Shown: positions 10,021 to 25,109 of the stretch, in pieces
How positions within the stretch are numbered: the first letter of the stretch is position 1
How the letters are laid out: the number at the start of each line of letters is the position of its first letter
Source of the DNA: a virus
Virus record (IMG/VR): IMGVR_UViG_3300047994_000594
Location: 1 to 28,841 of that record
Direction: 5' to 3' (one strand)
Length of the DNA stretch: 28,841 bases
Notes under the pieces: generated by a model
Told to the model about the DNA's origin: nothing
The model's input: only the letters and a program-made list of their open reading frames with translations
Databases searched by the model: none
Translations under genes and position numbers: made by a program

Positions 10021-10701
10021 TCAGTTCGCGATATTCATCCACGCGATACTTGCTGTCGGCAGCAGCTTGGTGACGGTCGTCTGTATATCGGCATCGCTTA
10101 CCACGGTGCTCAACATCGACAGATCGCCATAATACGGCAAGCCGCCCGTTCCATAACCTGCCAGCAGAGCAATTCCACCGCCCGCAGGCCGATATGCAGT
10201 GACGAAAACCTGATACGGCAGCGCCAGAGATCCCCATCCGCCCGCACCAGGCACAAGTATCTCCGAACCTCCCACGACGGTCTGGCCGCCATAGCAAAGC
10301 CCGCCGACGCTATAACCGCCCGTGTCGCTCGGCCGCGCCGGTTCGAACACCCGCGGCGGCCGTCCGGTGAGCTCCGTCAAAGCCAGCACCAAAGCCGAGC
10401 GTGTGGCACGCGGGCGCAGCAGTTCCTGACTTATCCGGGCCCGGAACAACCCATCAGCCTCGGCATTGCGTCGCGGCAGCGCCATCCCAAAGAAATCGGT
10501 GCTGATGAGATCCAGAAAGCCACCGCTCGCGGTAGCAATGCGCGCCTGCGCCTGCACCGTCTGCGCCAGGCTGTAGATCGCCGACCAGCCTGTTCCCAAC
10601 CCCACCAACACTGCCTGCAACAACGGCGACGTATCGCCAAACCAGCGTGCCGGCAGCACTGCCTGCATGCGTGCCGCCATATCGTCACTATCGCCGATCA
10701 T
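10021..10701 (-). CDS. Baseplate/tail protein, gpI- or YmfQ-like
   Basis: 226 residues. The N-terminus (DDMAARMQAVLPARWFGDTSPLLQAVLVGLG) and the conserved PRATRSALVLALTELTGRPPRVFEP segment near residues 95-125 fit P2 gpI / Mu gp48 (YmfQ-type) proteins. These sit at the outer baseplate between gpJ and the fibres. The Gly/Tyr-rich middle (GGYSVGGLCYGGQTVVGG) is typical of the variable part of this family. The ATG at 10701 is separated from the gpJ stop by one base (TGACATG), the same arrangement as between gp25 and gpJ, so translation is probably coupled. Assignment leans on gene order as much as on sequence. Confidence 0.65.
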   Translation of the reverse strand: MIGDSDDMAARMQAVLPARWFGDTSPLLQAVLVGLGTGWSAIYSLAQTVQAQARIATASGGFLDLISTDFFGMALPRRNAEADGLFRARISQELLRPRATRSALVLALTELTGRPPRVFEPARPSDTGGYSVGGLCYGGQTVVGGSEILVPGAGGWGSLALPYQVFVTAYRPAGGGIALLAGYGTGGLPYYGDLSMLSTVVSDADIQTTVTKLLPTASIAWMNIAN

Positions 10702-10702
10702 G

Positions 10703-11824
10703 TCAGTTCACCACCACCGAAGCCGCAATGATCACACCATTCACCGGCGCGGCCACGTCCGCGGTTCCGCCATTGATCGTCGTGCCAACAACGCTCACGA
10801 CCGACGGGTCAGCACCATGTCCCAGCGCATCGAGTTTCGAAATCGCCAGCGTTCCTCCCATCGGCAGCCCAGAAATCCACGCCAACACCGACTGCTGCGC
10901 CGAGTTGGCAACCGCCGCTCCGGTCAGCGGATTGGACGTCTCCAAATTCATGCTCACTGCCACATGCACCACCACCGGCGGCGTCACCGCATAGGTCGAG
11001 CCAAGCGGCCGAACTTGCTCGACCGCCGCTTGCACGTCACTGATCAACGCCGCCGGCGGATTTCCCGTGCCGTCATCGACAGCGACCACGAAATGCCCCG
11101 GCAAAGCATTGCCCGATCCGTCCTGGTTTTCCACAATGCTGTAACGAAGTCCCTGCTGCACAGCGAGGATGGCATTGCTCACCGCAAGCCTGGTAGCCAG
11201 TGGCAGGCTGTTGATATAGGCCTGGAACCGCAACCGCAATGCCGCGTCACTCTCAGGATCGACACCACCCACGAAAGCCGCCGCATTGTTCACCGTATCG
11301 ACGCCAGCGATCGCCGAATTCAGCAAACCGACGGCTCCAGCTAGCACGTTGCCGGCACTACCAGCCACCAATGCCTGCACCGGTACATCAACAGAGGCAA
11401 GCTGCGCCGGCAAGCTATAGCCCACCACACCATTCGTCACCATGCACGATGCGCTCGCCACGACAGTAAAACTCTGCGTGCCATCCACTGTGCGAACCAC
11501 TGTTCCCACCGGCACGAAAGCGTTCAGACCCACGGTATAGCGTGCGAAAGTCACAATGCCGTTCGCCGGCGCCCCCGGCAACCGAACCAGTGAAAAATCC
11601 GCCATCCAGCTATCCAGATCCGGCCCGTTACTGGTCGATGCGCGTGTCATCGACAGTACTTGCAGGATCAGCCACTGCATCCAAAGCGCTACAGAAGCAC
11701 TTGCCTCCAGCACCGCACGCAACACACTGCCCACCGACAAATCGATAAGCTGCTGCGCCCCACCCTGCACGGCAGCAGCCATCTGCTGTACTAAGGTAGA
11801 AAAACCGTTGAGGGGCAGGAGCAT
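10703..11824 (-). CDS. Baseplate J-like protein
   Basis: 373 residues, the usual length for P2 gpJ / Mu gp47. The Baseplate_J signature is clear: an N-terminal helical part, then DLDSWMADFSLVRLPGAPANGIVTF near residues 70-95, VPVGTVVRTVDGTQSF near 105, and GGVDPESDAALRLRFQAYI near 188, the conserved helix of the family. A C-terminal beta domain contains VVVHVAVSMNLE. It forms wedges of the baseplate around the hub. The gene starts one base after the gp25-like stop and ends one base before the next start, inside a tightly coupled baseplate operon. Confidence 0.9.
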   Translation of the reverse strand: MLLPLNGFSTLVQQMAAAVQGGAQQLIDLSVGSVLRAVLEASASVALWMQWLILQVLSMTRASTSNGPDLDSWMADFSLVRLPGAPANGIVTFARYTVGLNAFVPVGTVVRTVDGTQSFTVVASASCMVTNGVVGYSLPAQLASVDVPVQALVAGSAGNVLAGAVGLLNSAIAGVDTVNNAAAFVGGVDPESDAALRLRFQAYINSLPLATRLAVSNAILAVQQGLRYSIVENQDGSGNALPGHFVVAVDDGTGNPPAALISDVQAAVEQVRPLGSTYAVTPPVVVHVAVSMNLETSNPLTGAAVANSAQQSVLAWISGLPMGGTLAISKLDALGHGADPSVVSVVGTTINGGTADVAAPVNGVIIAASVVVN

Positions 11825-11825
11825 G

Positions 11826-12194
11826 TCAAGCGCCTACCTGGAACGACAGCACCTGCGTCGTCCCGAGCGTGGAGTCGACATAGCGAATCTGCACAATCAC
11901 GCTCCCATCAGCAGCAGTCTGCACATCGATCAGCGGCTCGGGAGTTCGCGACACCGCAGACTCCTTGAAAATCTGGCTGCGAATGGCGGCCCTGATGGCC
12001 AGCACGTCCACCGGCATGCCGACAAACCGCGCAAGTCCCGCGCCATAATCAAGCTGCCAGATATAGTCGCCAGGATTGGTCAGCAACCGCCGCAACACGC
12101 GCTGCTGCCCAAGCATCGTATCCGCAGCCAGCGCAATATCGCCCGTCGAGCTCGCAGACAGATCAGCGCCCCAAACCAGGCTCGCATCCTGCAT
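11826..12194 (-). CDS. gp25/gpW-like baseplate wedge protein
   Basis: 122 residues. The start is ATG at 12194 with GGAGG 5 nt upstream; an upstream TTG at 12206 overlaps that site. The sequence carries the gp25 family pattern: an early DIALAADTMLGQQRVLRRLLTNPGDY, then YGAGLARFVGMPV, a helix, and a C-terminal beta hairpin (GSVIVQIRYVDST). The family forms a conserved component of contractile baseplates next to gpJ. Upstream is an 92-bp gap containing a REP-like palindrome; downstream gpJ follows after one base. Confidence 0.88.
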   Translation of the reverse strand: MQDASLVWGADLSASSTGDIALAADTMLGQQRVLRRLLTNPGDYIWQLDYGAGLARFVGMPVDVLAIRAAIRSQIFKESAVSRTPEPLIDVQTAADGSVIVQIRYVDSTLGTTQVLSFQVGA

Positions 12195-12210
12195 CCGTGC
12201 CTCCAAAAAC

Positions 12211-12236
12211 GTAGCGCGGATTGCTTATCCGCCCCC
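12211..12236. repeat. REP-like palindrome, GCGGAT/ATCCGC family, copy 1
   Basis: GCGGAT at 12216-12221 and ATCCGC at 12227-12232 pair around TGCTT, preceded by GTAGC. It resembles the element at 23161-23185 (GTAGGGCGGAT..ATCCGCCC). It lies between the gpV-like and gp25-like genes. Confidence 0.7.
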
Positions 12237-12286
12237 TATGAAATCCCAACGATTGCACGACAACAACCAATCACCAGCACGGCCGG

Positions 12287-12811
12287 TCAATCCGTCGGCG
12301 TAGGGGGCGTCTCCGACGGCGGATGCACATGCTCATTGTAATGTCCGCGCAACCGAGACAATGCACCCTCGCCGTCGTACACGTCGCCACTGACATGCAA
12401 ATCCCCAGTGTGGCTCCAGGACGGCGCAGAGCTCGCAATCGAACCATCATTTAGCAGCTTGAGAAAACTCCCCGACTTATGCACCAGCCACAACTCGCCG
12501 CTCGCCGCAGCCGGCGGCCGCGTGGTGTTCGACCACAAACGCCCCACCACGATCCCGTGCTCTGCATCGCCTTCTTGCCAAATGACAACAACCTGATCCC
12601 CCGGCGAAGGCGGACACGCCAACCCCCAACCGTTCCCAACCCAACTCGCGGCCACAGGCAGCCAGCCGGACAACACGCCCTCCGGCTGAATCTGCACGCG
12701 TACCGTAGCCGCCACGTTATCGACCGAGGTCACGACAGCCAGCCTAGGCTGCGCCCATCCCTGATCCAGCCGTGACGCATGAGCCTTGATCAGATTGAGG
12801 AAGCTATCCAC
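12287..12811 (-). CDS. Baseplate assembly protein V (central spike)
   Basis: 174 residues. Residues about 20-95 form the gpV OB-fold (RLAVVTSVDNVAATVRVQI, then PSPGDQVVVIWQEGD and GIVVGRLWS). Residues 105-155 look like the beta-prism spike (SGSFLKLLNDGSI, GDLHVSGDVYDGEG). The end has HYNEHVHPP with an HxH at residues 161-163. In P2-like spikes HxH binds an iron ion at the membrane-piercing tip. Start is GTG at 12811 with GAGGG 7 nt upstream, inside the 3' end of the hub gene (22-bp overlap), so translation is coupled. The protein ends in a short Pro/Thr tail. Confidence 0.88.
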   Translation of the reverse strand: MDSFLNLIKAHASRLDQGWAQPRLAVVTSVDNVAATVRVQIQPEGVLSGWLPVAASWVGNGWGLACPPSPGDQVVVIWQEGDAEHGIVVGRLWSNTTRPPAAASGELWLVHKSGSFLKLLNDGSIASSAPSWSHTGDLHVSGDVYDGEGALSRLRGHYNEHVHPPSETPPTPTD

Positions 12812-13830
12812 GCCGGCACCCTCGCCCTCACATGCTGCGTAAACCCGTGCGCGAACGACAGCCGCCGTTCCACATCAGAAATAATATAGAGCCCATCAAA
12901 ATCCGTTCCGGTATCCGATAGTGCCAACCCCATGCGCGGCTGCATCGTCAACTCGCCAGGCAACTCCACATCGACGCACAAGGCATGTTGCGCCATTTCG
13001 CCCAGCACACGCTGGGCAATGCTTTGCGCCACGTCAGCCGTCACGTTGGGCCGCACGATCACATAATCCGGGCTACCGCCGGCGCCGCCACCCAGCGTCG
13101 CAGTCTGCGATATCGACGTCTGTCCGCGGCAATCCCAACTCCTCACAGCAACCGATAACGCGCCCTCCAAGCTGAGCGTCCGCTCCAGCCGCAACGACAC
13201 GCAGTCACCCGGCGTCAACGCCACAGTCGTCATGGCAGCAGGAGGCATAAAATTCAGCACTTGCCGATCGACCCACACATCAAAACCCTCCTGGTCGGCC
13301 AGCCGCGTCAGCAAATCCCACTCGGTCGTAAACCGTCCATGCTGGTCCAACGTCGTCCGCGCATGCTGACCCTGAAAGTTCCTCCCCACCGGCAGCGACG
13401 TTGCAGTCACGTTGGGCGTCAGCCCCTGCCGGGTTGCCAGCAGCGTCGCGATATCGCTCGCCGTCTGATTCTGAAAAGTCTCCTGCGTACGAGCCTCGAT
13501 GAACAAGGCGGTCAGGTCCCGCCCATCCACGCTCACCTCACCACGGATAGGATCGATTTCGACAAAATCGGCCTGTCCCAGCAGCATCGGAACCCAAGCC
13601 CCGTCCAGGCCGAATTGAATCCCGATCTGCAACGGGCCAGACGACCAAACCGCAGCCCGCGATACATCGAGCGCCAAGCGAAGCCGAAATCGGTTTGCTG
13701 CCAGATGGCTATTGCTACAAACCTCGGCCTCGATGACGCCGCCCACCGCCACGCCATTGACACTAATGGCAGCGGCAGGCGCGCGCGCGTTACTGCTGGC
13801 CAATGCCACCTCCGGCCGACAGATCGACAT
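12790..13830 (-). CDS. Baseplate hub, late-control gpD-like
   Basis: 346 residues, the normal size for the P2 gpD / T4 gp27 hub family. Supporting features are an N-terminal beta domain (ISVNGVAVGGVIEAEV, NRFRLRLALD), a central DGRDLTALFIEARTQETF with a following helix (SDIATLLATRQGLTP), and WDLLTRLADQEGFDVWVDRQ near 185. The C-terminal QPRMGLALSDTGTDFDGLY and YIISDVERRLS are typical of the family. The hub trimer joins the tube to the spike. The ATG at 13830 is used here, but a TTG at 13803 has GGAGGT five bases upstream and may be the true start. The 5' end overlaps the LysM-like gene by 41 bp. Confidence 0.85.
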   Translation of the reverse strand: MSICRPEVALASSNARAPAAAISVNGVAVGGVIEAEVCSNSHLAANRFRLRLALDVSRAAVWSSGPLQIGIQFGLDGAWVPMLLGQADFVEIDPIRGEVSVDGRDLTALFIEARTQETFQNQTASDIATLLATRQGLTPNVTATSLPVGRNFQGQHARTTLDQHGRFTTEWDLLTRLADQEGFDVWVDRQVLNFMPPAAMTTVALTPGDCVSLRLERTLSLEGALSVAVRSWDCRGQTSISQTATLGGGAGGSPDYVIVRPNVTADVAQSIAQRVLGEMAQHALCVDVELPGELTMQPRMGLALSDTGTDFDGLYIISDVERRLSFAHGFTQHVRARVPAWIASSI

Positions 13831-13975
13831 CAGGAATGGACAGCGTCACCAAGCCTTGCAGAAACGGATCCAGTATGTCGTTGGCCGCCGCAATGCGCAC
13901 CCATTGCGTCGCATCGTCAAGATAGACCGACGCAACCTGAAACAGATTGCCGCCAGCCACTGTCACCATGCGCAT
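13790..13975 (-). CDS. LysM-like tail protein X analogue
   Basis: 61 residues from the ATG at 13975, which overlaps the upstream stop by one base (TGATG). VAGGNLFQVASVYLDDATQ, then IAAANDILDPFLQGLVTLSIP has the LysM-like pattern of P2 gpX, where a small LysM fold sits between hub and tail. It lies immediately before the gpD-like hub, as gpX does in related clusters. A reading frame extends upstream to 14032 but duplicates coding sequence of the neighbour. Confidence 0.75.
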   Translation of the reverse strand: MRMVTVAGGNLFQVASVYLDDATQWVRIAAANDILDPFLQGLVTLSIPDVDLSAGGGIGQQ

Positions 13976-14652
13976 CAGTTGGCCTCCGCCAAATTGGCCA
14001 TAGCCCGTCCAACGTATCCCTGAGCCGAGCACAATTGTGCCAACGTGCCCGATGCACGCACCGCAGTCGCCAGATCGCTCGAACCAAGTCCAGCCTCAGC
14101 GCCGACAATTTTTTGGGAAATCGTACCCTGCGCGGCGCTCAGGGTGGCCGCGGCCGCCGCAGCAGCAGAGGTGCCAGATGTCAGTGCACCCGTCGCACTC
14201 GTCGCCGCCAAGGCCGCCGTCACATTAACATAAAGGCCCGCACTCGCAAGATCGGCAGCAATCTCGCCAGCAGCAGAGACCACGAGCGCACCATCCGCCT
14301 GCGCCTCATCGAGCAGAACCTTGCAGGTAATCCTGTATTCGATCCACCACGGGCTCGTATAATCCAGTTGCAGCCGCGCAATCACGACACTGTAGAAAAA
14401 CTGGTCCCAGCTCAGCGGCAACACGTCTCCCGCCGCCCGCATCGCGTCGAGCATGGCCGCACGGGCGCTCGCGTCCGCACCGGATATCACGCCAGACCAG
14501 GCAATATCCGAATCATCTCGCCCCATCGCGTCGATGACACGCACACCACCTGGCAGCTTATGCACCACCAGCGACTGCGTGCCCCCGAACAACACCCGCC
14601 CAGGCACCTCGAAACCTTGAAGTGCTATCGGACCAAGCTGTAATACGACCAT
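13975..14652 (-). CDS. Tail/baseplate protein in the Mu gp43 / gpU position
   Basis: 225 residues. The first 110 are a compact domain: RVLFGGTQSLVVHKLPGGV, RVIDAMGRDDSDIAWSGVI, then an Ala-rich helix and VLPLSWDQFFYSVVIARL. The rest is Ala-rich and helical (ATSATGALTSGTSAAAAAAA). The first domain resembles proteins that lie between the tape measure and hub in Mu- and P2-like phages (gp43 / gpU type), but I cannot assign a firm family. ATG 14652 shares one base with the preceding TGA; a GTG one codon earlier is also possible. Its place upstream of the gpX-like and gpD-like genes supports a hub-proximal role. Confidence 0.55.
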   Translation of the reverse strand: MVVLQLGPIALQGFEVPGRVLFGGTQSLVVHKLPGGVRVIDAMGRDDSDIAWSGVISGADASARAAMLDAMRAAGDVLPLSWDQFFYSVVIARLQLDYTSPWWIEYRITCKVLLDEAQADGALVVSAAGEIAADLASAGLYVNVTAALAATSATGALTSGTSAAAAAAATLSAAQGTISQKIVGAEAGLGSSDLATAVRASGTLAQLCSAQGYVGRAMANLAEAN

Positions 14653-15869
14653 CACCCCCCCACCGTGGCCCCTGGCAGCAGCGCGTTGCGCCGCTGATCA
14701 AATCCTGTCGGCCCGGCCGAGGCCCGGCCGGCCTCGCGGCTCAAATACCGCGACATCCACCGCCCAACCAGCACACCATCCAGAAACACGTCGCCCTGGA
14801 TCGACCCGCCCGCGCCGCCAGCCGCGCCCCCCGAGTTCTCGCCGGCCTCCTGCACCACCTCGTTGCCGGGTGCCGCACTATCCTGCGCCGCCAGTCGCCG
14901 CTGCGGCGCCTCGGTCAAAACCGGAGCAAAGGACGCCGCAGGCGGTACGTTGGACCAGGCCGCCGGCTGAACCGCCGGCGGTCCTGCACCCCGATCCGCC
15001 CCCTCAAAATCGGCACCGGAAACCACGTCCGGCCGCCGGCTCCCAAACACATCCAGCCGAAGCCCCGAAGGCTCAGCATCCAGGCTACAGGCCATCGCTG
15101 GGGCGAAGTAGGCGGCGCCACGTGCAGAGGCGCCAGCCGCAGGGGCAAATGGGGCGGCCACCGGCGGGCCACGCGTGGCAGCAGCCTGCTCAAGCTGACC
15201 CGGCATCCCCGCTGCCGCCTGCGGGCGAACCGGCGGCGCCAACGGCACGCTACGCTCCGCGCCGACCTGCTCCGCCCGCACCATCGACCCGCTTGCCGGT
15301 TGCTCACCAACCGGTGACGCCAACGGCGCGCCCGGCTCGGCGCCGGCCTGCCCAGGCTGATCCGCCACAGACACCACTGGCTGCTGGCGAACGGGCAACG
15401 GCACCCTGTCCAACCGGAATGAATGGAGCACCTCCATCCGCGGCTCAGCTATTGGCGGTTCAGGCAGGTTGGCCTTAATGTCCGTCGCCCGCAGCGCCTC
15501 CGGTGCCGAACCGGCAGCCCCCGATATCAACGCCGGCACCGGCGATGGCGACATCGGCGCAGCCGCAACCACCTGCGGCCGCTCAACCGGCGCCACGCCC
15601 GCGTCACTGCGCTCGCCAGAGCCTGCCTCAGATCCAGGCGCGACCTTGCCGCGCGCCAATTGGCCTGGATTGAGGCTGCCAGCCAAATTCCGCACCGAAT
15701 GCATGACCGTCAGCGCAGCAATACCAGCCTTCTGCAGCCGCTGCACCGATAGCGCACCCGCACCCACGGCGTGCGTCACCGCATCGGCATCGCGCTGCGC
15801 CTTCGCAATGCCCTCCGAAACCCCATCGGCCAGCGCTAGCGAAATGCCAATTTCAAAAGCCTCGGTCAT
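14652..15869 (-). CDS. Short Pro/Ala-rich protein in the tape-measure position
   Basis: 405 residues, probably with the tape-measure role because it lies between the frameshifted tail chaperone and the baseplate genes. The N-terminus (residues 1-60, FEIGISLALADGVSEGIAKAQRDAD) is helical, as in tape-measure proteins. Residues about 75-330 are rich in Pro, Ala, Gly and Gln and probably disordered. They include three tandem 27-residue repeats at 161-187, 188-214 and 215-241, ending ASPV, APPV and AAPF. The last 50 residues (GDVFLDGVLVGRWMSRYLSREAG, then GPTGFDQRR) look conserved. There are no obvious membrane spans, long coiled coils or peptidase domains, unlike most tape measures. The start at 15869 has an ATGA overlap with the upstream stop. 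It may instead be an accessory tail protein, with the ruler missing. Confidence 0.55.
   Translation of the reverse strand: MTEAFEIGISLALADGVSEGIAKAQRDADAVTHAVGAGALSVQRLQKAGIAALTVMHSVRNLAGSLNPGQLARGKVAPGSEAGSGERSDAGVAPVERPQVVAAAPMSPSPVPALISGAAGSAPEALRATDIKANLPEPPIAEPRMEVLHSFRLDRVPLPVRQQPVVSVADQPGQAGAEPGAPLASPVGEQPASGSMVRAEQVGAERSVPLAPPVRPQAAAGMPGQLEQAAATRGPPVAAPFAPAAGASARGAAYFAPAMACSLDAEPSGLRLDVFGSRRPDVVSGADFEGADRGAGPPAVQPAAWSNVPPAASFAPVLTEAPQRRLAAQDSAAPGNEVVQEAGENSGGAAGGAGGSIQGDVFLDGVLVGRWMSRYLSREAGRASAGPTGFDQRRNALLPGATVGG
15147..15389 (-). repeat. Three tandem 81-bp in-frame repeats
   Basis: Residues 161-241 of the tape-measure-slot protein are three consecutive units of exactly 27 residues. 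Units begin RQQP, GEQP and RPQA. Position 13-14 is DQ or EQ-like, and units end LASPV, LAPPV and VAAPF. The units are diverged, so this is an old duplication rather than a recent slippage. Confidence 0.65.
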
Positions 15870-16141
15870 CCATTCCGCCCCCGCAGTACGTCCGCCACCG
15901 CGGCCGCAACCTGCGGCGCCACGGCCCGGCCGATGCCCTCAAGCACGCCAGCCGGCGGTCGGCCCGGTGCACCCAGTTCCGCATCACGCACCGCCGCAGA
16001 CGCGCTCACCACATGCACGCGCCCATTCCGCACGCGCATGCTCACCTCACAAGGTAAGCCGCGCTCACCCAGCCCGGCGCGCATCGCCTCCGCCAGCACG
16101 CCGCCCGCCGAGGCCAGGGCATCCTTCAGCCTCTCGTCCAT
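15866..16141 (-). CDS. Small conserved-type tail protein, function unknown
   Basis: 91 residues from the ATG at 16141, which has GGAGG four bases upstream. The upstream reading frame to 16198 only repeats coding sequence of the chaperone extension. The N-terminus is helical (MDERLKDALASAGGVLAEAM), followed by a short beta region (RVRNGRVHVVSAS) and a C-terminal Ala-rich helix. I do not recognise the family. It overlaps the end of the frameshift product by 16 bp and the next gene by an ATGA, so it is clearly part of the tail operon and translated with it. Confidence 0.6.
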   Translation of the reverse strand: MDERLKDALASAGGVLAEAMRAGLGERGLPCEVSMRVRNGRVHVVSASAAVRDAELGAPGRPPAGVLEGIGRAVAPQVAAAVADVLRGRNG

Positions 16142-16637
16142 CGTGCCTCCGCAAAATCGTAATCGAGCCCATCGAGCCGGCCCAAAGCCACAATCCACGC
16201 CTGCCGTTCATCGGCCGGCAAAGAAAACGCCACATCGAACGGCACCCCGTTCCGAATCAGGTAGAGCGGATCCACCAGATCGGGGTGCCCACTCAGTTTC
16301 CCAGCGCAGCACTCCCAAGGCCAGGCGCGGTCTCGTCGGCAAATGCACCGGCAGCCGCTGCAATACCTGCATCGCCAAGCCGCGAAACCAGCGCCTCCAC
16401 CTGCCCTTCCGTCACCGGCGGCGGCACCGGCACCCCATCGATGGCGCACACCGACGCCGCAAGCATCGCCATGCCCAGATAAGGCGTATTCTGCGCCAGT
16501 TGCGGTCCAACCGCCTTGAACAGCCGCAACCGGTCCAGCGCACTCATCCGCCGCAACGCCAGTTCACGCCCATCCGCGTCGCGCACCAGCGTCTGCGCCA
16601 GCGCCGCCGCGACAATCCTGCTGCTCGGCGTCTCCAT
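16126..16637 (-). CDS. Tail assembly chaperone, long frameshift product (gpGT-type)
   Basis: Predicted 170-residue product: the 114 residues of the short form, then a -1 slip at GGGAAAC (16296-16302), then 56 residues starting LSGHPDLVDPLYL. The added part contains FSLPADERQAWIVALGRLDGL and ends EARWTRG. In contractile and long non-contractile phages this gene pair, between tube and tape measure, makes a minor long form by programmed slippage; both forms keep the tape measure soluble during tail assembly. The extension frame has no convincing start of its own near the slip, which supports fusion rather than an independent gene. Confidence 0.8.
16293..16637 (-). CDS. Tail assembly chaperone, short form (gpG-type)
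   Basis: 114 residues ending ALGN before TGA at 16293-16295. The sequence is helical and Ala-rich (IVAAALAQTLVRDADGREL, then RLRLFKAVGPQLAQN). A segment GVPVPPPVTEGQVEALVSRLGD matches the style of phage tail chaperones. The start overlaps the tube stop by one base (TGATG). Its role as chaperone is inferred from position and from the slippery site in its last codons. Confidence 0.8.
   Translation of the reverse strand: METPSSRIVAAALAQTLVRDADGRELALRRMSALDRLRLFKAVGPQLAQNTPYLGMAMLAASVCAIDGVPVPPPVTEGQVEALVSRLGDAGIAAAAGAFADETAPGLGSAALGN
16296..16302 (-). promoter_or_regulatory. Programmed -1 ribosomal frameshift heptamer GGGAAAC
   Basis: On the minus strand the last codons read CTG GGA AAC TGA, so the heptamer falls as G-GGA-AAC, exactly the X-XXY-YYZ phase needed for a -1 slip. 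The stop is the next codon. The related GGGAAAG heptamer is used in the lambda G/GT pair. I saw no strong downstream stem, only short complementary blocks (GATC..GATC). Confidence 0.88.
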
Positions 16638-17065
16638 CAGATACGCTGCCGCTGCGTCGCAAAGAACTCCAGCTTCTGCTTGACGCTGGCATCACCTTTC
16701 CAGCTCCCCGCATTCACCAGCTTGAACACGACACCGCTATACTGATAGGTCGACGTCGATCCATCCACCTCAGTCACGTATTGGTACACGGTCCCGGCCG
16801 GCAACGATCCTTGGCTGAGAAAAATCTGCTCGGACGCCGCAATAAAGTCGTCGACCGCGCTCGTCCCGCGCTCCACCTCAAAACTTCCTTCCCAGCCCTT
16901 GGGAAGTTCCGCTCCCATCGGCACGCCATCCAGCCGGTCGAGCCGGACCGACTGCGTAATCTGCCGGCTCTCAAACCCAGTCACGTACGTCAGATCGACG
17001 CGCCCCTGCGGCCCCATGACCACAAGCTGGCAATCGCGCCCGATCGAGAATGAATTGATCGGCAT
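16637..17065 (-). CDS. Tail tube protein
   Basis: 142 residues, the normal size for contractile tail tubes. Start is ATG 17065 (MPINSFSIG) with GGAG 7 nt upstream; a longer frame runs back through a repeat and is rejected. Features are FSIGRDCQLVVMGPQGRVDLT, the conserved VTGFESRQITQSVRLDRLDG, then GWEGSFEVERGTSAVDDFIA and a C-terminal WKGDASVKQKLEFFATQ. These recall the tube family in which FESxQ and GWxGSF are hallmarks. It forms the inner tube around which the sheath packs. It follows the sheath gene after a 158-bp gap with two palindromes, and its stop overlaps the chaperone start. Confidence 0.85.
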   Translation of the reverse strand: MPINSFSIGRDCQLVVMGPQGRVDLTYVTGFESRQITQSVRLDRLDGVPMGAELPKGWEGSFEVERGTSAVDDFIAASEQIFLSQGSLPAGTVYQYVTEVDGSTSTYQYSGVVFKLVNAGSWKGDASVKQKLEFFATQRQRI

Positions 17066-17081
17066 GTGCAAACTCCAAAAT

Positions 17082-17123
17082 CTTCTCCCTCCCCCCCTTG
17101 GGGGAGGGCCGGGGTGAGGGTGG
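17082..17123. repeat. REP-like element, CTTCTCCCTC family, copy 1
   Basis: CCCTCCCCC at 17087-17095 and GGGGGAGGG at 17100-17108 form a 9-bp stem around CCTT, followed by CCGGGGTGAGGGTGG. It is one of four related elements in this orientation in the window. It sits just upstream of the tail tube start. Confidence 0.85.
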
Positions 17124-17144
17124 TCCGACTGGGCACGTAAAGCG

Positions 17145-17173
17145 TAGGATGGGTTGCCCTCGAGCAACCCATC
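17145..17173. repeat. REP-like palindrome, GATGGGTTGC family, copy 1
   Basis: GATGGGTTGC at 17148-17157 and GCAACCCATC at 17164-17173 form a perfect 10-bp stem with a 6-nt loop, preceded by GTAG. It lies in the sheath-tube gap. A second, slightly imperfect copy lies at 28408-28437. Confidence 0.85.
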
Positions 17174-17223
17174 AAAACCCAAGGCGGCGGCCGTTCATAA
17201 CGGCGGTAATCAAGAGCCGAAAA

Positions 17224-18786
17224 TCATCCAGGCGGCAAAACCTGGCTCTGCACGATCACCGTCTGCCCGCCCTCAACATTGACAATGAATTTCTCATTAA
17301 TACCCTGGAACTGTACCTGCGCATCGCTCTGCACATACCCAAGGCTAGTCCGGCTCAGCGGGTTGTTGCTCAAATCGCAAATCACGCTGAAAGGCGGCGA
17401 CCCGTCCACGCTCCCCAAAACGCCCTGGCTCAGCAAACCCTGCAAATAGCTAAGCTGGGTCGACCGAATGCGCTGAAACAGGCTGGCATTAATCACCTGG
17501 CCGACGAAAAGCCCCATGCCCGCCGCCAACGTAGCAGCAATATAATTCGTCAGCCGCGTATAATTGTCGCCGTTTGTCGCCTGGTTGGAACTGGAATTAT
17601 GCCCGCAGCGAACCCCCCAATACGCCCCCCCCGGCTGCGGATTGCTCACCACATCGATCCCGGCCTCGAACAGCACAGTCAATTCCGCGTCGCTGTAAGT
17701 CGATGTCTGCCCGCTGCCCGGAACCCCCGACATCTGCGTCCCAACCACATTATACAGCGGCTTGTTCAGGCTTGATTGTTCAGGCGAAAGATTGCCCAGC
17801 CGGCCTGCCACAAACCCCTGCGGCGAAACCAGTCGAGTCAAGCCATTGGCCTGATCGTTCCAGTAAATCCAATCACCGAACATCAGCTTGGCAGCATAGG
17901 AATCCAGCCCCGCCTGCTGCTTGGCCGTCACCGCATCGGCAATCGTCTGCCCCGCCGGTCCCACCAGGATCATATACACGCCTTCGGACAGCCCAAAGCC
18001 GGCCTGCGCCGTCCACTGCGTCGCATCATCAGCATCAGCAAGCATACCGATGCTACAACCCTGGCCACGCAGCGAATACATGCCAAGCCGAGGCACCGTA
18101 TCCTGCCCCACCAACGTCGCCGCCGTCGCCGAGGACGCACCATCGGTGCCACCCGACAATTTTGCCGTGACCGCCGTCACCGTCACCGTCGTCGCCGACC
18201 CCAAGGTCGCCGCCACCAGCTGCGACGGCCCCCGCAACGGCCCATTGCCCTGGTTCACCGCCGTAACCAGATTCTCCCAAAAAACGGCAGCACTCGGCGC
18301 GAGAATATTATCGAAAACTTCCGGCACCACACCAGGCAGCGCCACGGTCAAGCGCCAGCACCCAGCCTGCGGCGCCGCACCAATCGTCACCGTCAGACTA
18401 TTGCCCAGCGACCCGGTATAGCGCGCCGTCAATTCCGCTGCGAACGTCCCGGCCGAAGCCCCGATCGCATAACTCGCCGCCACATCCGTCCCGTCACTGA
18501 CCCGCACGCAAAGGAACGCGCTCGCCCCTTGCTGCACCGCGCACGCCACGGCCGTTCCCATGTCGTACTTCCGCGCAATCACCGGCCCGAAATATTGCGC
18601 ATAATCCGCCATGGTCCCGACCACCACCGGTCGGCCGACAGGTCCCCACGGCGCGGTTCCAACCATACCAATGACATTCGTCGGCACCCCATTCAGCACC
18701 AAATTCTGCGGCGCCACGATCTGCACATAGAGGTCGGGCACCACCAGCGCCGTCGTGTTCAGCGCGCCTTGCTGGAAAATCGGCAT
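17224..18786 (-). CDS. Contractile tail sheath protein
   Basis: 520 residues. VVVPDLYVQIVAPQNLVLNGVPTN-type opening, GMVGTAPWGPVGRPVVVGTMADYAQYFGP and a C-terminal domain with TRLTNYIAATLAAGMGLFVGQ, LQGLLSQGVLGS and a final beta strand mark the sheath family. GYVQSDAQVQFQGINEKFIVNVEGGQ near the end is the strand that interlocks subunits. Contraction of the sheath drives the tube through the envelope. ATG 18786 has GGGAG 8 nt upstream. The presence of this gene places the phage among the contractile-tailed type. It is flanked on both sides by gaps with CTTCTCCCTC repeats. Confidence 0.93.
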   Translation of the reverse strand: MPIFQQGALNTTALVVPDLYVQIVAPQNLVLNGVPTNVIGMVGTAPWGPVGRPVVVGTMADYAQYFGPVIARKYDMGTAVACAVQQGASAFLCVRVSDGTDVAASYAIGASAGTFAAELTARYTGSLGNSLTVTIGAAPQAGCWRLTVALPGVVPEVFDNILAPSAAVFWENLVTAVNQGNGPLRGPSQLVAATLGSATTVTVTAVTAKLSGGTDGASSATAATLVGQDTVPRLGMYSLRGQGCSIGMLADADDATQWTAQAGFGLSEGVYMILVGPAGQTIADAVTAKQQAGLDSYAAKLMFGDWIYWNDQANGLTRLVSPQGFVAGRLGNLSPEQSSLNKPLYNVVGTQMSGVPGSGQTSTYSDAELTVLFEAGIDVVSNPQPGGAYWGVRCGHNSSSNQATNGDNYTRLTNYIAATLAAGMGLFVGQVINASLFQRIRSTQLSYLQGLLSQGVLGSVDGSPPFSVICDLSNNPLSRTSLGYVQSDAQVQFQGINEKFIVNVEGGQTVIVQSQVLPPG

Positions 18787-19758: not shown

Positions 19759-20694
19759 CTACAGGCAGTTGTCATCCTCACGCCTGGCCCGGAGATATAA
19801 ATCCCACTCGCGCTCCAATTCAGGCTTGTTCCCCGCCCACTCGAGCACGCCAAAACTGTTGCGCTTGAGGTCGGTATCCGGATCGAAACCATGCTTCACG
19901 AACATGTCCCAGCGTCCAAGATACCCGCGATTCTGCTTGGCGCCATGAAAGCGGTGCTCGATGATCCCAGGCACAACCCCGATCCGACCATTAACGAAGC
20001 GTAATGCCCGCTCCTGCCAGCGCAGCAAATGCCGCTTGTAAGTCTCGCTCGTCCCATGCGGCCAACTCCGCTCCACCAGCCCTGCAAACGCCAGCGCCAT
20101 GTGGTGATCGGCACTTCCCATGCCGGCCAGCTCAAAAAGCCCACCTGTCCAGTCCAGCAACTCTCGCCGGCACGCCCAGAAATACCCGCTATGCGGGTAT
20201 TCCGCGTAGCCGCCGTCGAACTTCCAGAAATTCTTTCCGGAAGCCACCAGCGGCGCACCCTCAAGATACTGGGACGCAAACGAATGGTGCACGCCGATCA
20301 GCGAGTCATTCGGCCCCAGGTCCAACGCCCGCGACCAGGTCTGCACCACCCGATAATGCTGCAAATGCTCCACGGTCTCCCGCGCCCACCCGGGCTTACG
20401 GTGCCACACATCTGCATCACCCCAGGCAATATACTCGGCATCAGGAATGCGCCTGATGCCCTCGTTCAGAGCGCACTCCTTGCACCACGCCCAACTATCC
20501 GCCCGCAGGCCAACATGATTGACATGCGGCAGAGCGCAAACAAAATCACGCCTGCCATATTGCACCTCAACCACCGTAAGCCGCGCGCCGGAGTCGAGAA
20601 CATGCCCTACCCAATCGCGGAAATGCCGGTCAGGAGTCTCCCAGCGCAGCGGATTGAACCGCGCCGTCACCACATGCAGTTGTTGAGCGTCCAA
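19759..20694 (-). CDS. GT-A-fold glycosyltransferase-like protein
   Basis: 311 residues. A VVTARFNPLRWETPDRHFR opening precedes a Rossmann-like core, and WGDADVWHRKPGW near residues 91-103 contains DAD (93-95), a DxD-type metal/nucleotide-sugar site. GYFWACRRELLDWTGG (170-185), a DHH triad (196-198) and HRFHGAK (247-253) complete a GT-A, family-2-like layout. It probably transfers a sugar, perhaps to a virion protein or host surface glycan; donor and acceptor are unknown. TTG 20694 has GGGGAG six bases upstream, and no ATG lies near. It sits between the connector and terminator genes, an odd place for an enzyme, but overlaps nothing and is intact. Confidence 0.7.
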   Translation of the reverse strand: MDAQQLHVVTARFNPLRWETPDRHFRDWVGHVLDSGARLTVVEVQYGRRDFVCALPHVNHVGLRADSWAWCKECALNEGIRRIPDAEYIAWGDADVWHRKPGWARETVEHLQHYRVVQTWSRALDLGPNDSLIGVHHSFASQYLEGAPLVASGKNFWKFDGGYAEYPHSGYFWACRRELLDWTGGLFELAGMGSADHHMALAFAGLVERSWPHGTSETYKRHLLRWQERALRFVNGRIGVVPGIIEHRFHGAKQNRGYLGRWDMFVKHGFDPDTDLKRNSFGVLEWAGNKPELEREWDLYLRARREDDNCL

Positions 20695-20709: not shown

Positions 20710-21339
20710 TCAAGCAGCGGTCTGCCGCACCTGCAGGCGCCATCCCAGCGCGCTCTGCTCGGCCGCACCCACCACATAATTTTGCGAACTATCGTCAATC
20801 ACCACGTCGCCCGCCTGCGGCGACACCGGCAACGCCGGAAGCAGCAAGTTCCAGCCTCCAAGCTTCTGTGCACGCACATCCGTATCACCAGCGCGCGTTC
20901 CGGCTTCGAGCAGACTTGCCGGAAAACCAGTAAGAACCGGCACCGCACTCGTCGCCGAGAACCCGCTATATCCGCCGGTCACCGGCACCGCCGCCCGCAA
21001 AATCTGCACGACCCGGTTGGTCGCCACACATTGCACCGGCAGCAGCGGCCGCTGCGCGCAAATGAAATACGTGCCGCTTGTACCGACCAGATAATCCCCA
21101 GGCTGCGTGTAGGATGCATCGAACACGCCCCACCACACCGGCCGCCCGAACCCCGAAACGGTACGAAAACGTCCATCCTCTGCATTGAACGAGGCATTGA
21201 GTTTTATAATCCGATTCCGCGAAATCAGCGGATTGGCGGCACATGCGGGCCGATAAACAACAAACGGCGTGCCCAGCTTGCGTGCCGCCAGTCCCATGCC
21301 ACGACTGATTTTATCCTGCAGGCAGATACCGTCCATCAT
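20710..21339 (-). CDS. Phage head-tail region protein, function unknown
   Basis: 209 residues from the ATG at 21339 that overlaps the preceding stop (ATGA). Features are LQDKISRGMGLAARKLGTPFVVYRP, then FDASYTQPGDYLVGTSGTYFICAQRPLLPVQCVATNRVVQILR. The pattern resembles a conserved alphaproteobacterial phage protein encoded beside connectors; I recall no assigned function. Probable roles include head completion or minor capsid protein. A longer frame to 21417 runs back through the connector gene and is not used. Confidence 0.6.
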   Translation of the reverse strand: MMDGICLQDKISRGMGLAARKLGTPFVVYRPACAANPLISRNRIIKLNASFNAEDGRFRTVSGFGRPVWWGVFDASYTQPGDYLVGTSGTYFICAQRPLLPVQCVATNRVVQILRAAVPVTGGYSGFSATSAVPVLTGFPASLLEAGTRAGDTDVRAQKLGGWNLLLPALPVSPQAGDVVIDDSSQNYVVGAAEQSALGWRLQVRQTAA

Positions 21340-21710
21340 ACAACCCAGGAAAGACCGCAAGCCCCTAGCCCCTCGCCAGGCGGCACGCCAAAAAACGCGC
21401 ACAACCGCCGGCGCCAAACATCCAGCAGACGGAGCCGGTCGCGCACCTCATTTTCATTATGCGTCCACGCCCCGGCCGCCTCGCTATCCAAATTGTCGCT
21501 TGCAGAAGGCACCGCCAACTCCAGTTGCAGCAACGTCGCCAGATAATTGCCAACAACGGTCTCCTCCGCCGGCGACAGATTATTCATCCGATACTCCAGC
21601 GCCCCATAAGCGACATAAAACCGCCACCCCATGTTCCCGGACGGCGAGGCCCCATAAGCAGGATACCCACAGAACCGCCGAATATCAGTCTTCTGCGCAT
21701 CCGTAAGCAT
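21336..21710 (-). CDS. Head-tail connector (head-completion) protein
   Basis: 124 residues, the size of gp6/gp15-type connectors. MLTDAQKTDIRRFCGYPAYG at the start and RLRLLDVWRRRLCAFFGVPP at the end flank a helical core (LSPAEETVVGNYLATLLQLELA). The length and helical nature fit connectors that join portal to tail. ATG 21710 has AAGGA about eight bases upstream. It follows the capsid gene, as usual for connectors, after a gap with a REP-like element. Confidence 0.65.
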   Translation of the reverse strand: MLTDAQKTDIRRFCGYPAYGASPSGNMGWRFYVAYGALEYRMNNLSPAEETVVGNYLATLLQLELAVPSASDNLDSEAAGAWTHNENEVRDRLRLLDVWRRRLCAFFGVPPGEGLGACGLSWVV

Positions 21711-21720
21711 TCAATGCTTC

Positions 21721-21757
21721 CTTCTCCCTCGCATCGTGGGTGAGGGCCGGGTGGGGG
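21721..21757. repeat. REP-like element, CTTCTCCCTC family, copy 3 (degenerate)
   Basis: CTTCTCCCTC at 21721-21730 and GAGGGCCGGGTGGGGG at 21742-21757 keep the ends of the family, but the stem centre has changed to GCATCGTGGGT. It fills most of the 75-bp capsid-connector gap. Confidence 0.65.
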
Positions 21758-21785
21758 AACACAGCCACGCGAACGTATCGGCGCG

Positions 21786-23114
21786 TTACCCCAGATGCTC
21801 GATCATCACCGCGCGCTTGAAGTTCGCATTCGTCGCCGTCGGCACCGTCAGACTCGTCGTCGTCGTATCGGATGGCGCGCAAAACCCGCCGATCCAATAC
21901 CAGGACTGCGCAATGATCTGTTGCAGCCGGTCGATCGGCTCGCGCGTCACCATGCAAACCCCGTCCACGAGCGAGACCAGCGAGTCCTTCGGCGCCACAT
22001 CGTCGCTTGCCATGCCGGCAAAATCGCCCTCGACCAAGGCACCCTGACCAACAATGATCGGGCGGCGGATATACGCGCCAGCAATCGTCGGATGCGTTTG
22101 CACGTAAGATTCGTTTGTCAGCAGAAACCGTAGCCCCAGGAACTCATTGACCACGCCCTGCCCCGGCCGAAACACCTCATTGGCCGACGTCGCACCAATG
22201 AACAGCCGCTGGAAATCGCTGTCCGCAAACAATTGCCTGGCGCTGATCGGATCCAGATGGCAATTGTACGCGCCATCGATATCCGGCACGGCATTCAGCC
22301 GCAAATTCGCCACGCCATCGAGAATGTTGGCCATCGACAGCGTGTCGCCAGCCACGATCTGCGTCGAGTTCGTCCGTCCATTCGGCCGCAATACCAGAGA
22401 CGCCGTCGAAGCCTGCACGCTATTGAACGCGGTCGCATCGCTCACCGACACGTTGCTTGAAAAGCTCAGAACACCCGATACGCCACCTGGCGTGATCGAA
22501 ACGCTCGTCGCATCCGCGGTCACACCGACAAGCGTATAAATATCCGACCCCACCGTCACCCCAAGCGGGTTGCTTGAGGTCACTGTCTGCTGCACGCCGT
22601 TGACGAACGCTGTCTGAAATCCGCGCACATCATCCACTGCCACGCTCGGGCCAGCACTGCCCAACGTCGTGCGCACAAACGTGTTGCCTGCGAAATAGGC
22701 GTTGAACAGCGCATTGCGCGCCAAATCGTCCAGGCTGCGCGCCGCCTGCTCGCCGTTCACGTAAGCGTTATGCAGGAACACGCTGGCGATCGCCACGCGG
22801 CTCGTCACCATGTTCAAATCCATTGTCGCTGCATAATGATTCAAGGTAATCGAGAATTGCTCGACATTCCAACTACCCGACGTCAGCCCGTTATCCAGAT
22901 TCGTATTCGTGTTCGCCGCCAGTGGCGTCGTCACGGCCGGCCGCAGCCCAGCGCGCGTCTTCGTCAGAGTCTCGCCAATCCCGACAGAAAACTCCTCGCG
23001 ATCGGCACAGGCGCGATAACCGATCCTGGACCGCAGCGCCTGCTGGAACTCACGCTCCAAAAAACCCTGCTGGATAATCGGCTGCAGTGCCAGTGGAAAA
23101 TTCGATACGCTCAT
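21786..23114 (-). CDS. Major capsid protein
   Basis: 442 residues with the HK97-fold style of a phage coat. The N-terminal arm (QPIIQQGFLEREFQQALRSRIGYRAC) precedes a helix/beta body (LNHYAATMDLNMVTSRVAIAS). Then come DDLARNALFNAYFAGNTF and VSVSDATAFNSVQ, with a central insertion domain of about 100 residues rich in Ser/Val. The C-terminal half has DGAYNCHLDPISARQLFADSDFQRLF and ends with a strand (TTSLTVPTATNANFKRAVMIEHLG). No protease is encoded nearby, so processing is not expected. It lies after the scaffold gene across a gap with two hairpins that may stabilise its message. GGGGG precedes ATG 23114. Confidence 0.85.
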   Translation of the reverse strand: MSVSNFPLALQPIIQQGFLEREFQQALRSRIGYRACADREEFSVGIGETLTKTRAGLRPAVTTPLAANTNTNLDNGLTSGSWNVEQFSITLNHYAATMDLNMVTSRVAIASVFLHNAYVNGEQAARSLDDLARNALFNAYFAGNTFVRTTLGSAGPSVAVDDVRGFQTAFVNGVQQTVTSSNPLGVTVGSDIYTLVGVTADATSVSITPGGVSGVLSFSSNVSVSDATAFNSVQASTASLVLRPNGRTNSTQIVAGDTLSMANILDGVANLRLNAVPDIDGAYNCHLDPISARQLFADSDFQRLFIGATSANEVFRPGQGVVNEFLGLRFLLTNESYVQTHPTIAGAYIRRPIIVGQGALVEGDFAGMASDDVAPKDSLVSLVDGVCMVTREPIDRLQQIIAQSWYWIGGFCAPSDTTTTSLTVPTATNANFKRAVMIEHLG

Positions 23115-23132
23115 TCATGCCCCCAAAACTAC

Positions 23133-23147
23133 GGGGGCGTCGCCCCC
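23133..23147. repeat. GC-rich hairpin upstream of capsid gene
   Basis: GGGGGCG at 23133-23139 and CGCCCCC at 23141-23147 can pair around a single base, in practice a 6-bp stem with a GTC loop. It is in the 5' leader of the capsid gene, next to a second palindrome. Confidence 0.6.
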
Positions 23148-23160
23148 TCCGTTGTAACAT

Positions 23161-23185
23161 CGTAGGGCGGATTTCTTATCCGCCC
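23161..23185. repeat. REP-like palindrome, GCGGAT/ATCCGC family, copy 2
   Basis: GGGCGGAT at 23165-23172 and ATCCGCCC at 23178-23185 form a perfect 8-bp stem around TTCTT, preceded by GTA. It resembles the element at 12211-12236. It sits between the scaffold and capsid genes. Confidence 0.8.
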
Positions 23186-23218
23186 AGCCCACCACAAAAT
23201 CGGCCGCCAACGCGAAGC

Positions 23219-23623
23219 CTACCGCCGCCGCAGCAACTCCGCCCGTGCACTACGCCACTCATCGAGGCTCATCTCCGTCGCCAACTTGCGCCGTGTCACC
23301 GCCGCAGTCGGCGCAACCGCAGCACTGCTCGAGCTCGCGGCACCAAAAAGCCAAGGCTTGTCACGCCGCAATTTAGCAATCACGTCAGCGGCACCATGAA
23401 ATTCACCATTTTCTCCCGGCGAGAGCACCGCAGGGTCGATGAGTTTCAATCCATCCAGATCGACCATGCCGGCACGCAAAGCCTCAGTCTGCAATGCCAA
23501 TTGCACAAGCTTTGCACTCGATTTCGCCTGCACCTCCGCCAACTGCCGCTCCAGCCCATCGGCGTGCGCACGCAGCGCCGCCAACTCGTCGCCCGCCGTC
23601 GGCAAACCTGCGCTATCGCTCAT
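23219..23623 (-). CDS. Scaffold-like protein
   Basis: 134 residues. The N-terminal 70 form a coiled coil (DELAALRAHADGLERQLAEVQAK). GMVDLDGLKLIDPAVLSPGENG followed by DVIAKLRRDKPWLFG matches the pattern of phage scaffolds (GPO / DUF4355-like), where such a Leu-Asp and KPxLF segment is conserved. The C-terminal basic tail (RSARAELLRRR) probably binds capsid. Its position between portal and coat supports internal scaffolding. It starts within the portal stop (ATGA), so it is translated with the portal. Confidence 0.75.
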   Translation of the reverse strand: MSDSAGLPTAGDELAALRAHADGLERQLAEVQAKSSAKLVQLALQTEALRAGMVDLDGLKLIDPAVLSPGENGEFHGAADVIAKLRRDKPWLFGAASSSSAAVAPTAAVTRRKLATEMSLDEWRSARAELLRRR

Positions 23624-25011
23624 CGGCCCTCCTCAGCCTTGATACGTGCGAGTTCCGCAATACCATCCTCGATGCCGTACATCGGCCCCAAAACATGCAT
23701 TGCCGTCTCGCGTGAAATCTGTTTCGCCGCCACCAGCGAATTCAGCGTCTCTGCCGCGCGCTGCCGATCCAGCGAGTCGACAGGATACCAGTCCGGCCAG
23801 CGCAGGTTGATCTGTGCATCCGCATCCATCAGCGGCAGCACCAATCCCTCCAGCGCCAGCGGATAAATCCGGGCCGCCCGCAAAATCATCCGCGCCAGAG
23901 ACATCAGCCCGTCGCCGTAGCTTATCCGTAAATTATCAGCTAGCCACAGCAACCCCTGATTCATCATCTCGATCGCACGCCCGCTAGACGGCGCCGTCAA
24001 CCGGCTCGCATCCACCCGGTTGCCATGCACGCTCTCCAGCGCAAGCTCGCGCAGCGTGCGCACATAATCGATCACCGCCTGGCTCGCCGTCCCGCCAATC
24101 TCCAGCAGCTTCGCGTCACCCTTCTCGCTCACCACCAGCGCATTGGCCGCCCCGCGCACCATCGTTCCGTCCAATCCCGCCGGCTCGCGTATCAGCAGCG
24201 TCGGATCGCTGCTATATTTCAGCCCGCGCCCTGCCTGGCTGAGCTGATAATCGATCTCAATCCCGGTCTCAACCGCCGCACGAAACGTACAGGCGCCATC
24301 GGGCGCCTTGCCGCCCGGAAGGTTGCGTATCCAAACAACAGGTACAAACCCAAGCCGGTGTGAAATGCTCCTGTCATGGTCGCGCAACAACGCTGCCTGG
24401 CTTCCCACGCGCGCGGGCAAGAACCAGCTTTCCTCCTGTGCATCCCAGGTCCGTACAAACCAGTAGAGCGCATCGACATCGTCGATGTCATAACCCTGCT
24501 CTGCAAGCTCCCATCCAACCACCTTGACCCGCTCGGTCACGCGCAAGAGCTTGTCCGGCTCCTGCGGATCCCAAACCGGCGTCAGAAAATCCGTGTCTGC
24601 CACATCGACAAACACGCGCCGGTTCCGAATGCGCATAAACAATGCAACCGAGCCTACGCTCCCGCGCAGCCCCGCTTCCGTCATCACCGCATTCAGCCGC
24701 GCATCGCGAACAATGGCGGCCAACGCGTTACGCACGTCGGAGTCAGGCGATTCGATAACCGGGAAATGCCCCTCGCTGAACAGCAAGGCAACACTATCTT
24801 CCACCACCACCCGCGCCAGCGCATACCGCACCGACGGCCGCCGCTCCCGCACCGGAATATATTCGCCGCCGCCGCTACGTTCCTGATGAAACTCATACGG
24901 CAACACATCATAGATCGTGCCATCCAGCACCCGCCGCAGCACCCCCAAAGTCCACGCGCGCTCAGCAAAATCCCGATCACGCGGCACCAGCTCGCAAATC
25001 GTACTGAACAA
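23620..25011 (-). CDS. Portal protein, SPP1 gp6-like
   Basis: 463 residues, normal for SPP1-type portals. RRVLDGTIYDVLPYEFHQE opens the clip region. VRYALARVVVEDSVALLFSEGHFPVI and GLRGSVGSVALFMRIRN form the body. IDYQLSQAGRGLKYSSDPTLLI and SSGRAIEMMNQGLLWLADNLR include the conserved helices of the wing, ending LPLMDADAQINLRWPDWYPVD and RETAMHVLGPMYGI. The dodecameric portal is the DNA channel and the terminase dock. Start is TTG 25011 with AGAGG seven bases upstream and no ATG nearby. It lies after the terminase across a 98-bp gap with a hairpin. Confidence 0.88.
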   Translation of the reverse strand: MFSTICELVPRDRDFAERAWTLGVLRRVLDGTIYDVLPYEFHQERSGGGEYIPVRERRPSVRYALARVVVEDSVALLFSEGHFPVIESPDSDVRNALAAIVRDARLNAVMTEAGLRGSVGSVALFMRIRNRRVFVDVADTDFLTPVWDPQEPDKLLRVTERVKVVGWELAEQGYDIDDVDALYWFVRTWDAQEESWFLPARVGSQAALLRDHDRSISHRLGFVPVVWIRNLPGGKAPDGACTFRAAVETGIEIDYQLSQAGRGLKYSSDPTLLIREPAGLDGTMVRGAANALVVSEKGDAKLLEIGGTASQAVIDYVRTLRELALESVHGNRVDASRLTAPSSGRAIEMMNQGLLWLADNLRISYGDGLMSLARMILRAARIYPLALEGLVLPLMDADAQINLRWPDWYPVDSLDRQRAAETLNSLVAAKQISRETAMHVLGPMYGIEDGIAELARIKAEEGR

Positions 25012-25061
25012 GATGCCACCTCTTCACAATTCTTCGCGCGCCGCGGGAAAGCAGAGCCGGT

Positions 25062-25086
25062 GGTGGGTGGGCGTCAGCCCGCCACC
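25062..25086. repeat. GC-rich imperfect hairpin between terminase and portal
   Basis: GGTGG at 25062-25066 with CCACC at 25082-25086, and GGGC at 25069-25072 with GCCC at 25077-25080 around GTCA, form a bulged stem. It is in the leader of the portal gene and may be an RNA-stabilising hairpin or a dispersed element. Confidence 0.5.
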
Positions 25087-25109
25087 TACGCGCAAGTCGA
25101 ACGCCGCCG

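Follow-up and report, generated by a model that had tools for sequence, protein, structure and literature searches.

The gene at 14652-15869 (minus strand) of the window, by which we mean the whole 28,841-nucleotide stretch of DNA analysed here, probably encodes a reduced tape measure protein (TMP) made of two anchors and a disordered linker, within a contractile-tailed, gene transfer agent (GTA)-like, phage-derived cluster that is vertically inherited in sequenced relatives. The open reading frame starts with ATG and encodes 405 aa, and the original prediction was right to place it between the G/GT pair and the baseplate. Read along the minus strand, the gene order is sheath, tube, chaperone G, a ~90 aa gene, TMP, a hub-proximal gene, hub D, spike V, W, J and I, so that the TMP occupies the expected slot after G/GT and before the baseplate with one small gene in between.

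Genomic context of the gene

The tail sheath (17224-18786), indicative of a contractile tail, matches phrog_23 (E 1.5e-46), while the tail tube protein (16637-17182) is assigned by position, its match being to phrog_12993, a family whose function is not known. Chaperone G (16293-16637; phrog_20383, weakly phrog_344) carries the canonical -1 slippery heptamer GGGAAAC at 16302-16296, and this frameshift site together with the T extension of GT spans 16126-16302. The small conserved protein of ~90 aa that follows (15866-16198) is found in close relatives. On the other side of the TMP lies the hub-proximal tail gene (13975-14655; phrog_21362, E 1e-42), which comes directly after the TMP in short-TMP loci and served as the anchor for our searches, and beyond it the baseplate genes (10021-13830), of which hub, spike, wedge W and J have matches and I is placed by position and order. 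All of these are on the minus strand, as is the head module (20710-26576), in which major capsid protein, portal and large terminase are identified by more than position, and connectors and scaffold by position. The head-tail connector region also encodes a glycosyltransferase-like protein (19759-20694, minus strand) that is 83% identical in genomes G054 and G002, and is better conserved than most structural genes.

Beyond the terminase, the minus strand encodes a DUF6362 protein (27475-28008; Pfam PF19889, E 1.5e-9), likely a small terminase or regulator, and a GcrA-like HTH protein (28021-28311) assigned from an N-terminal pattern only and found in the same place in G054, G011 and G225; a Pfam search of its G054 homologue gave no match. 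This gene adjoins a divergent XRE-type regulator on the plus strand (28503-28841), keeps its position across clusters, and is a candidate cluster activator. The homologue of the XRE regulator at locus L314 matches HTH_3 (E 2.5e-12) and adjoins host genes.

Homology of the two ends to canonical tape measure proteins

The core of a canonical TMP is long, mostly alpha-helical and contains membrane-like segments, a feature that is usual rather than universal, the TMP of the gene transfer agent RcGTA being short. None of the Pfam, PHROGs or NCBIfam HMMs recognises the 405-aa protein directly, tblastn of the TMP against phages found no match, and Foldseek against viral models returned nothing below E 0.5, as expected for a mostly disordered model. 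Direct relatives are encoded at 4 loci in IMG/VR; the hub-proximal gene as query yielded 80 viral and 23 genome loci. Nearly all short forms have in common an N-terminal region of ~50 residues and a C-terminal region of ~45 residues, flanking a variable Pro/Ala linker. Profile searches with each end match longer proteins that occupy this slot, namely L108 (609 aa; N-terminal E 3e-7, C-terminal E 0.006) and L266 (667 aa; N-terminal E 6e-10, C-terminal E 9e-11), and these in turn match TMP families: L108 matches phrog_28 (E 6e-19), and L266 matches phrog_28 (E 1.3e-12) and phrog_794 (E 1.6e-12), the latter alignment extending to profile position 749 of 763, along with a weak match to TIGR01760. 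This bridge through L108 and L266 was needed because the ends of the short family, compared directly with the TMPs of phages phiKX1, phiKM1, phiAP1 and phiAO1, gave no significant match. Since the ends are homologous to those of canonical TMPs, the short proteins are canonical tape measure ends from which the core is gone, and homology of its two ends through these bridging sequences identifies the product of 14652-15869 as a TMP.

The search against tape-measure families that the original prediction had proposed as a check therefore succeeded for the longer relatives and not for the protein itself. Its reading of the protein as a short, disordered tape measure is upheld by this end homology and by predicted disorder, and neither of the results that it had named as contrary, another tape-measure gene or homology to a known non-ruler family, was found. 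In the window there is no second tape-measure candidate, the open reading frames above 450 aa being the sheath, portal, terminase, spikes and an SGNH esterase. We nevertheless file the protein as a reduced rather than a canonical TMP because the helical, membrane-like core is missing: disorder is predicted in its place, and the top 19-residue hydropathy is 1.19 vs a median of 1.97.

Anchors, linker and tandem repeats

AlphaFold2, run with 34 relatives, predicts a helix at residues 3-64 (15678-15863, minus strand, beginning MTEAFEIGISLALADGVSEGI; pLDDT ~85), a second helix at residues 365-381 (pLDDT ~85), and no confident structure between ~72 and 360. The second helix lies within the C-terminal anchor (residues 358-405; 14655-14798, minus strand), the best conserved element, with the consensus GDVFLDG..VGRWMSR.L.REAGR...GPTGFD.RR..LLPG.TVGG. 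Between the two lies the linker (residues 65-357; 14799-15677, minus strand), which contains the tandem repeats and has a pLDDT mostly below 55. The protein had been described as rich in proline and alanine, as the linker is (Pro 13.9%, Ala 21.4%), and as poor in coiled coil, which holds outside residues 1-64 but not for the predicted N-terminal helix. The suggested disorder prediction agrees, with a TOP-IDP value of 0.22 vs 0.04-0.10 in canonical TMPs. Linkers of 50 relatives likewise have high disorder propensity and contain 10-31% proline, vs 2-6.5% in 12 canonical TMPs, and are mostly without the strongly hydrophobic segments found in the latter; total length is 250-419 residues in the short forms vs 502-807 in canonical TMPs. 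In the predicted model, the helical core of a canonical TMP is replaced here by a disordered Pro/Ala linker of ~290 residues.

Values of dN/dS are mostly 0-0.2 at the ends (0.35-0.38 in two nearly identical pairs; 0.10 for the N-terminal helix of the window against its nearest relative, L002) and 0.36-1.0 in the linker across pairs (0.65 for the window against L002). Linker composition is correlated with local GC (r=0.98), such that GC-rich loci have Pro/Ala/Arg-rich linkers and AT-rich loci have Asn/Lys-rich linkers. Linker length, on the other hand, differs by 0-9 residues in independent pairs with linker identity of 0.52-0.89. Exceptions are the window and L002, which are 31 residues apart, largely through one additional copy of the 27-residue repeat, and some less closely related pairs, which differ by 60-119. 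With these exceptions, it looks as though linker length rather than sequence is under selection. Compensating indels are also suggestive of selection on length, though only suggestive, as independent pairs are few and low-identity alignments are unreliable.

The three tandem 27-residue repeats at residues 161-241 (15147-15389, minus strand) are real: scored at about residues 159-240 they reach 135, a value attained in 0 of 1000 shuffles (mean 30.5, sd 10.5), and the copies are 57-65% identical at the DNA level vs 33% for the linker background. Variation in their number had been proposed as setting tail length. The variation exists, with three copies in the window vs two in L002, but significant tandem repeats occur in just 2 of 50 relatives, the TMP lengths of relatives have no 26-27-residue periodicity, and copy number accounts for a length difference only between the window and L002. 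The repeats are a local duplication and not a family-wide mechanism. We also considered one repeat per tail ring (27 x 1.5 angstrom = 40.5 angstrom, for comparison with a ring rise of ~39 angstrom; PMC11948020), and rejected it in view of the missing periodicity and the predicted disorder of the repeats. A different repeat is present in the linker of the L052 TMP, where three 40-residue copies with the pattern SPLPLREG..GEGG look like translated palindromic intergenic repeats that have been inserted.

Distribution in Acetobacteraceae and relocation of the gene

The hub-proximal neighbour gene is present in 156 of 397 Acetobacteraceae genomes, and about 120 of these 156 slots were read and classified. 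They hold long TMPs, short two-ended TMPs and C-terminal-only forms, and in five cases the slot is 'empty', with the GT extension only. Among isolates, Limobrevibacterium gyesilva RN2-1 (L093) carries the cluster, with a TMP of 294 aa. Loss of the gene from these five genomes was considered and rejected: matches to the C-terminal profile indicate that it was kept in all of them, on another contig in G257 and, for G226, G356, G189 and G144 (loci L236, L234, L240 and L332), downstream of the GH108 lysin. In these four, which belong to one host clade, the TMP gene is ~14 kb away at the far end of the cluster, and the relocated TMPs retain the C-terminal anchor.

Several further loci have unusual arrangements. 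At L009 (2956-4681) the TMP and the next gene form one 571-residue frame with a truncated C-terminal anchor, either a natural fusion or a sequencing frameshift. The cluster region occurs twice on one 81 kb MAG contig, as loci L089 and L090, in inverted and seemingly identical copies that are perhaps an assembly artefact. The tail module is also present in a group of more distantly related loci (E about 1e-28), and in one genome of this group (G376, L232) the neighbour gene is not followed by baseplate genes; the cluster may be split in this group, at least in that genome.

Vertical inheritance with host chromosomes

Short-TMP clusters run from the divergent XRE regulator through terminase, capsid and contractile tail to a GH108 lysin, and they border directly on host genes: gmk-mltG-fabF in G054, which belongs to the window's subgroup; mreB in G219; groEL in G157, G198 and G264; Kup and FKBP in G356 and G226, and partially in G257 and G189; and the alr region in G132, with a flanking regulator common to G132 and G002. 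The same host loci are occupied in different species. No PF00589 integrase near the clusters is among the matches listed, and no replication gene turned up in the window or in those flanks of relatives that were read; in those relatives, the head-tail cluster stands without replication genes and, among the matches listed, without integration genes. A cluster tree built from the neighbour gene, tube and sheath has 18 of 26 splits in common with RpoB across 29 genomes, vs a maximum of 2 in 1000 label shuffles, and 21 of 45 across a set of 48 genomes to which G132 and G054, from the window's own subgroup, belong. The elements that encode canonical TMPs, in G305 (667 aa), on a Rhodovastum plasmid (807 aa) and in G372 (690 aa), lie outside the short-TMP clade, although their hosts nest inside it; genes for SSB, helicase, ParA or DnaB are present in the G305 element and on the plasmid. 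This phylogenetic agreement shows that the clusters of sequenced relatives pass vertically with Acetobacteraceae chromosomes, co-diversifying with their hosts, and residence in such vertically inherited, integrase-less clusters is the probable reason for the reduction of the ruler.

The window, a metagenomic contig, stops at the XRE gene, and its own host flanks lie beyond the contig. It does have the same XRE/GcrA-like/DUF6362/terminase end as the short-TMP clusters of relatives, and we infer that its copy is vertically inherited like theirs. That position of the flanks, the complete head module and the listing of the record as a virus in IMG/VR would also fit an ordinary temperate phage with a short tail as the source of the TMP, the vertical signal of relatives then reflecting host specificity. 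This is unlikely, however, given that neither an integrase (among the matches listed) nor a replication gene was identified in the window or beside relatives, that relatives' clusters join housekeeping genes directly at loci common to different species, and that the agreement with RpoB extends to the window's own subgroup.

Tail length and assembly

Phages of acetic acid bacteria provide a scale for tail length. By TEM, the tails of phiAP1, phiKX1, phiKX2 and phiKM1 measure 86.1, 98.9, 95.0 and 104.6 nm (PMC8566455), and their canonical TMPs of 645, 742, 742 and 805 aa correspond to 1.28-1.33 angstrom of tail per residue. The 526-residue TMP of phiAO1, with a 46.6 nm tail, gives 0.89 angstrom per residue, a value from one phage and three measured particles. 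Applied to 405 residues, this range of 0.89-1.33 angstrom per residue comes to about 36-53 nm; we estimate the tail of the window particle at ~35-55 nm, and a TMP without the canonical core should indeed go with a short tail. An extended, polyproline-like linker, at ~3 angstrom per residue, could alternatively set a normal tail of ~100 nm with half the residues; the linker is Pro/Ala-rich, and ~290 residues at this rise would span ~87 nm. We find this quite improbable. Linkers of AT-rich relatives are Asn/Lys-rich, and as composition follows GC no polyproline helix is conserved; moreover, the phiAO1 value, again from one phage and three particles, departs from that of canonical TMPs in the opposite direction.

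Given the contractile tail, a reduced TMP and relocation of its gene in one clade, one might think instead of a killing particle of the tailocin type or a prophage in decay rather than a DNA carrier, but we regard this as very unlikely, since portal, terminase and capsid are kept along with the tail, the capsid is 67-73% identical to the window's across genomes, open reading frames are intact in divergent species and the GH108 lysin is retained. Least probable of all is a plug or adaptor, with tail length set otherwise, for while linker sequence is weakly constrained and one clade has lost the N-terminal part, the protein occupies the TMP slot, both its ends are homologous to TMPs and its length is near-constant among close relatives.

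We therefore return to the reduced tape measure, for which we infer ruler action, a role in assembly, a short tail and transfer of host DNA. The protein would consist of a helical anchor at the N-terminus, ~290 disordered residues as a spacer and, at the C-terminus, a second anchor that docks in the baseplate hub. While the tail assembles, G and GT would coat the spacer, and rings of tube and sheath would keep polymerising up to the point at which the N-terminal anchor brings in the terminator, so that tail length would be set by the length of the spacer and not by its sequence. With terminase, capsid, tail and lysin intact, the cluster would act as a contractile-tailed GTA-like element. There is, in our estimate, an even chance that this is a previously undescribed lineage of contractile-tailed GTAs, co-diversifying with Acetobacteraceae and equipped with a two-anchor disordered ruler selected for length and not sequence. 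The gradation from canonical TMPs through forms with a disordered linker to relocated genes amounts to a natural experiment on the minimum content of a tape measure, and makes the question of length versus structure in tape measuring directly testable.

Comparison with known systems

Canonical TMPs (phrog_28, phrog_794, TIGR01760) occupy the same slot after G/GT and have homologous N-terminal ~50 and C-terminal ~45 residues, but have a helical hydrophobic core where the window TMP has none. Among phages, Komagataeibacter phiKX1 and phiKX2 have a sheath 58% identical to the window's, and their tail genes follow the window's order as far as the TMP; they differ in their 742-aa TMP, 95-99 nm tails and the presence of an integrase (PMC8566455). 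Acetobacter orleanensis phiAO1 resembles the window cluster in having no integrase, a short contractile tail of 46.6 nm (PMC8566455), a Ser/Thr/Pro-rich TMP and a terminase 45% identical to the window's, although most of its tail genes have no BLASTP match to the window's and its TMP has 526 residues. In its sequence (L111, LC644971; 2328-33014), phage genes are interrupted by host genes, which encode sulfurtransferase, peroxiredoxin, superoxide dismutase and catalase. It may represent another GTA-like lineage in Acetobacter, distinct from the one described here, and its particles have been published.

The precedent for a very short TMP in a phage-derived particle is RcGTA of Rhodobacter capsulatus, whose TMP of ~216 residues has its C-terminal domain towards the baseplate, and whose tail has five tube discs (PMC7296036) and measures 49 nm (PMC9662315). 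Unlike the window linker, the RcGTA protein is mainly a 113-residue helix with a structured C-terminal part, and the tail has no sheath around its tube discs (PMC7296036, PMC9662315), whereas the window cluster encodes one. We found no description of contractile GTA-like elements in Acetobacteraceae in the openly accessible literature. A contractile GTA would, if true, be both a new structural type and an extension of GTAs to a new host family, as the recognised GTAs in the ICTV proposal paper have non-contractile tails or none wherever tails have been described (PMC9662315).
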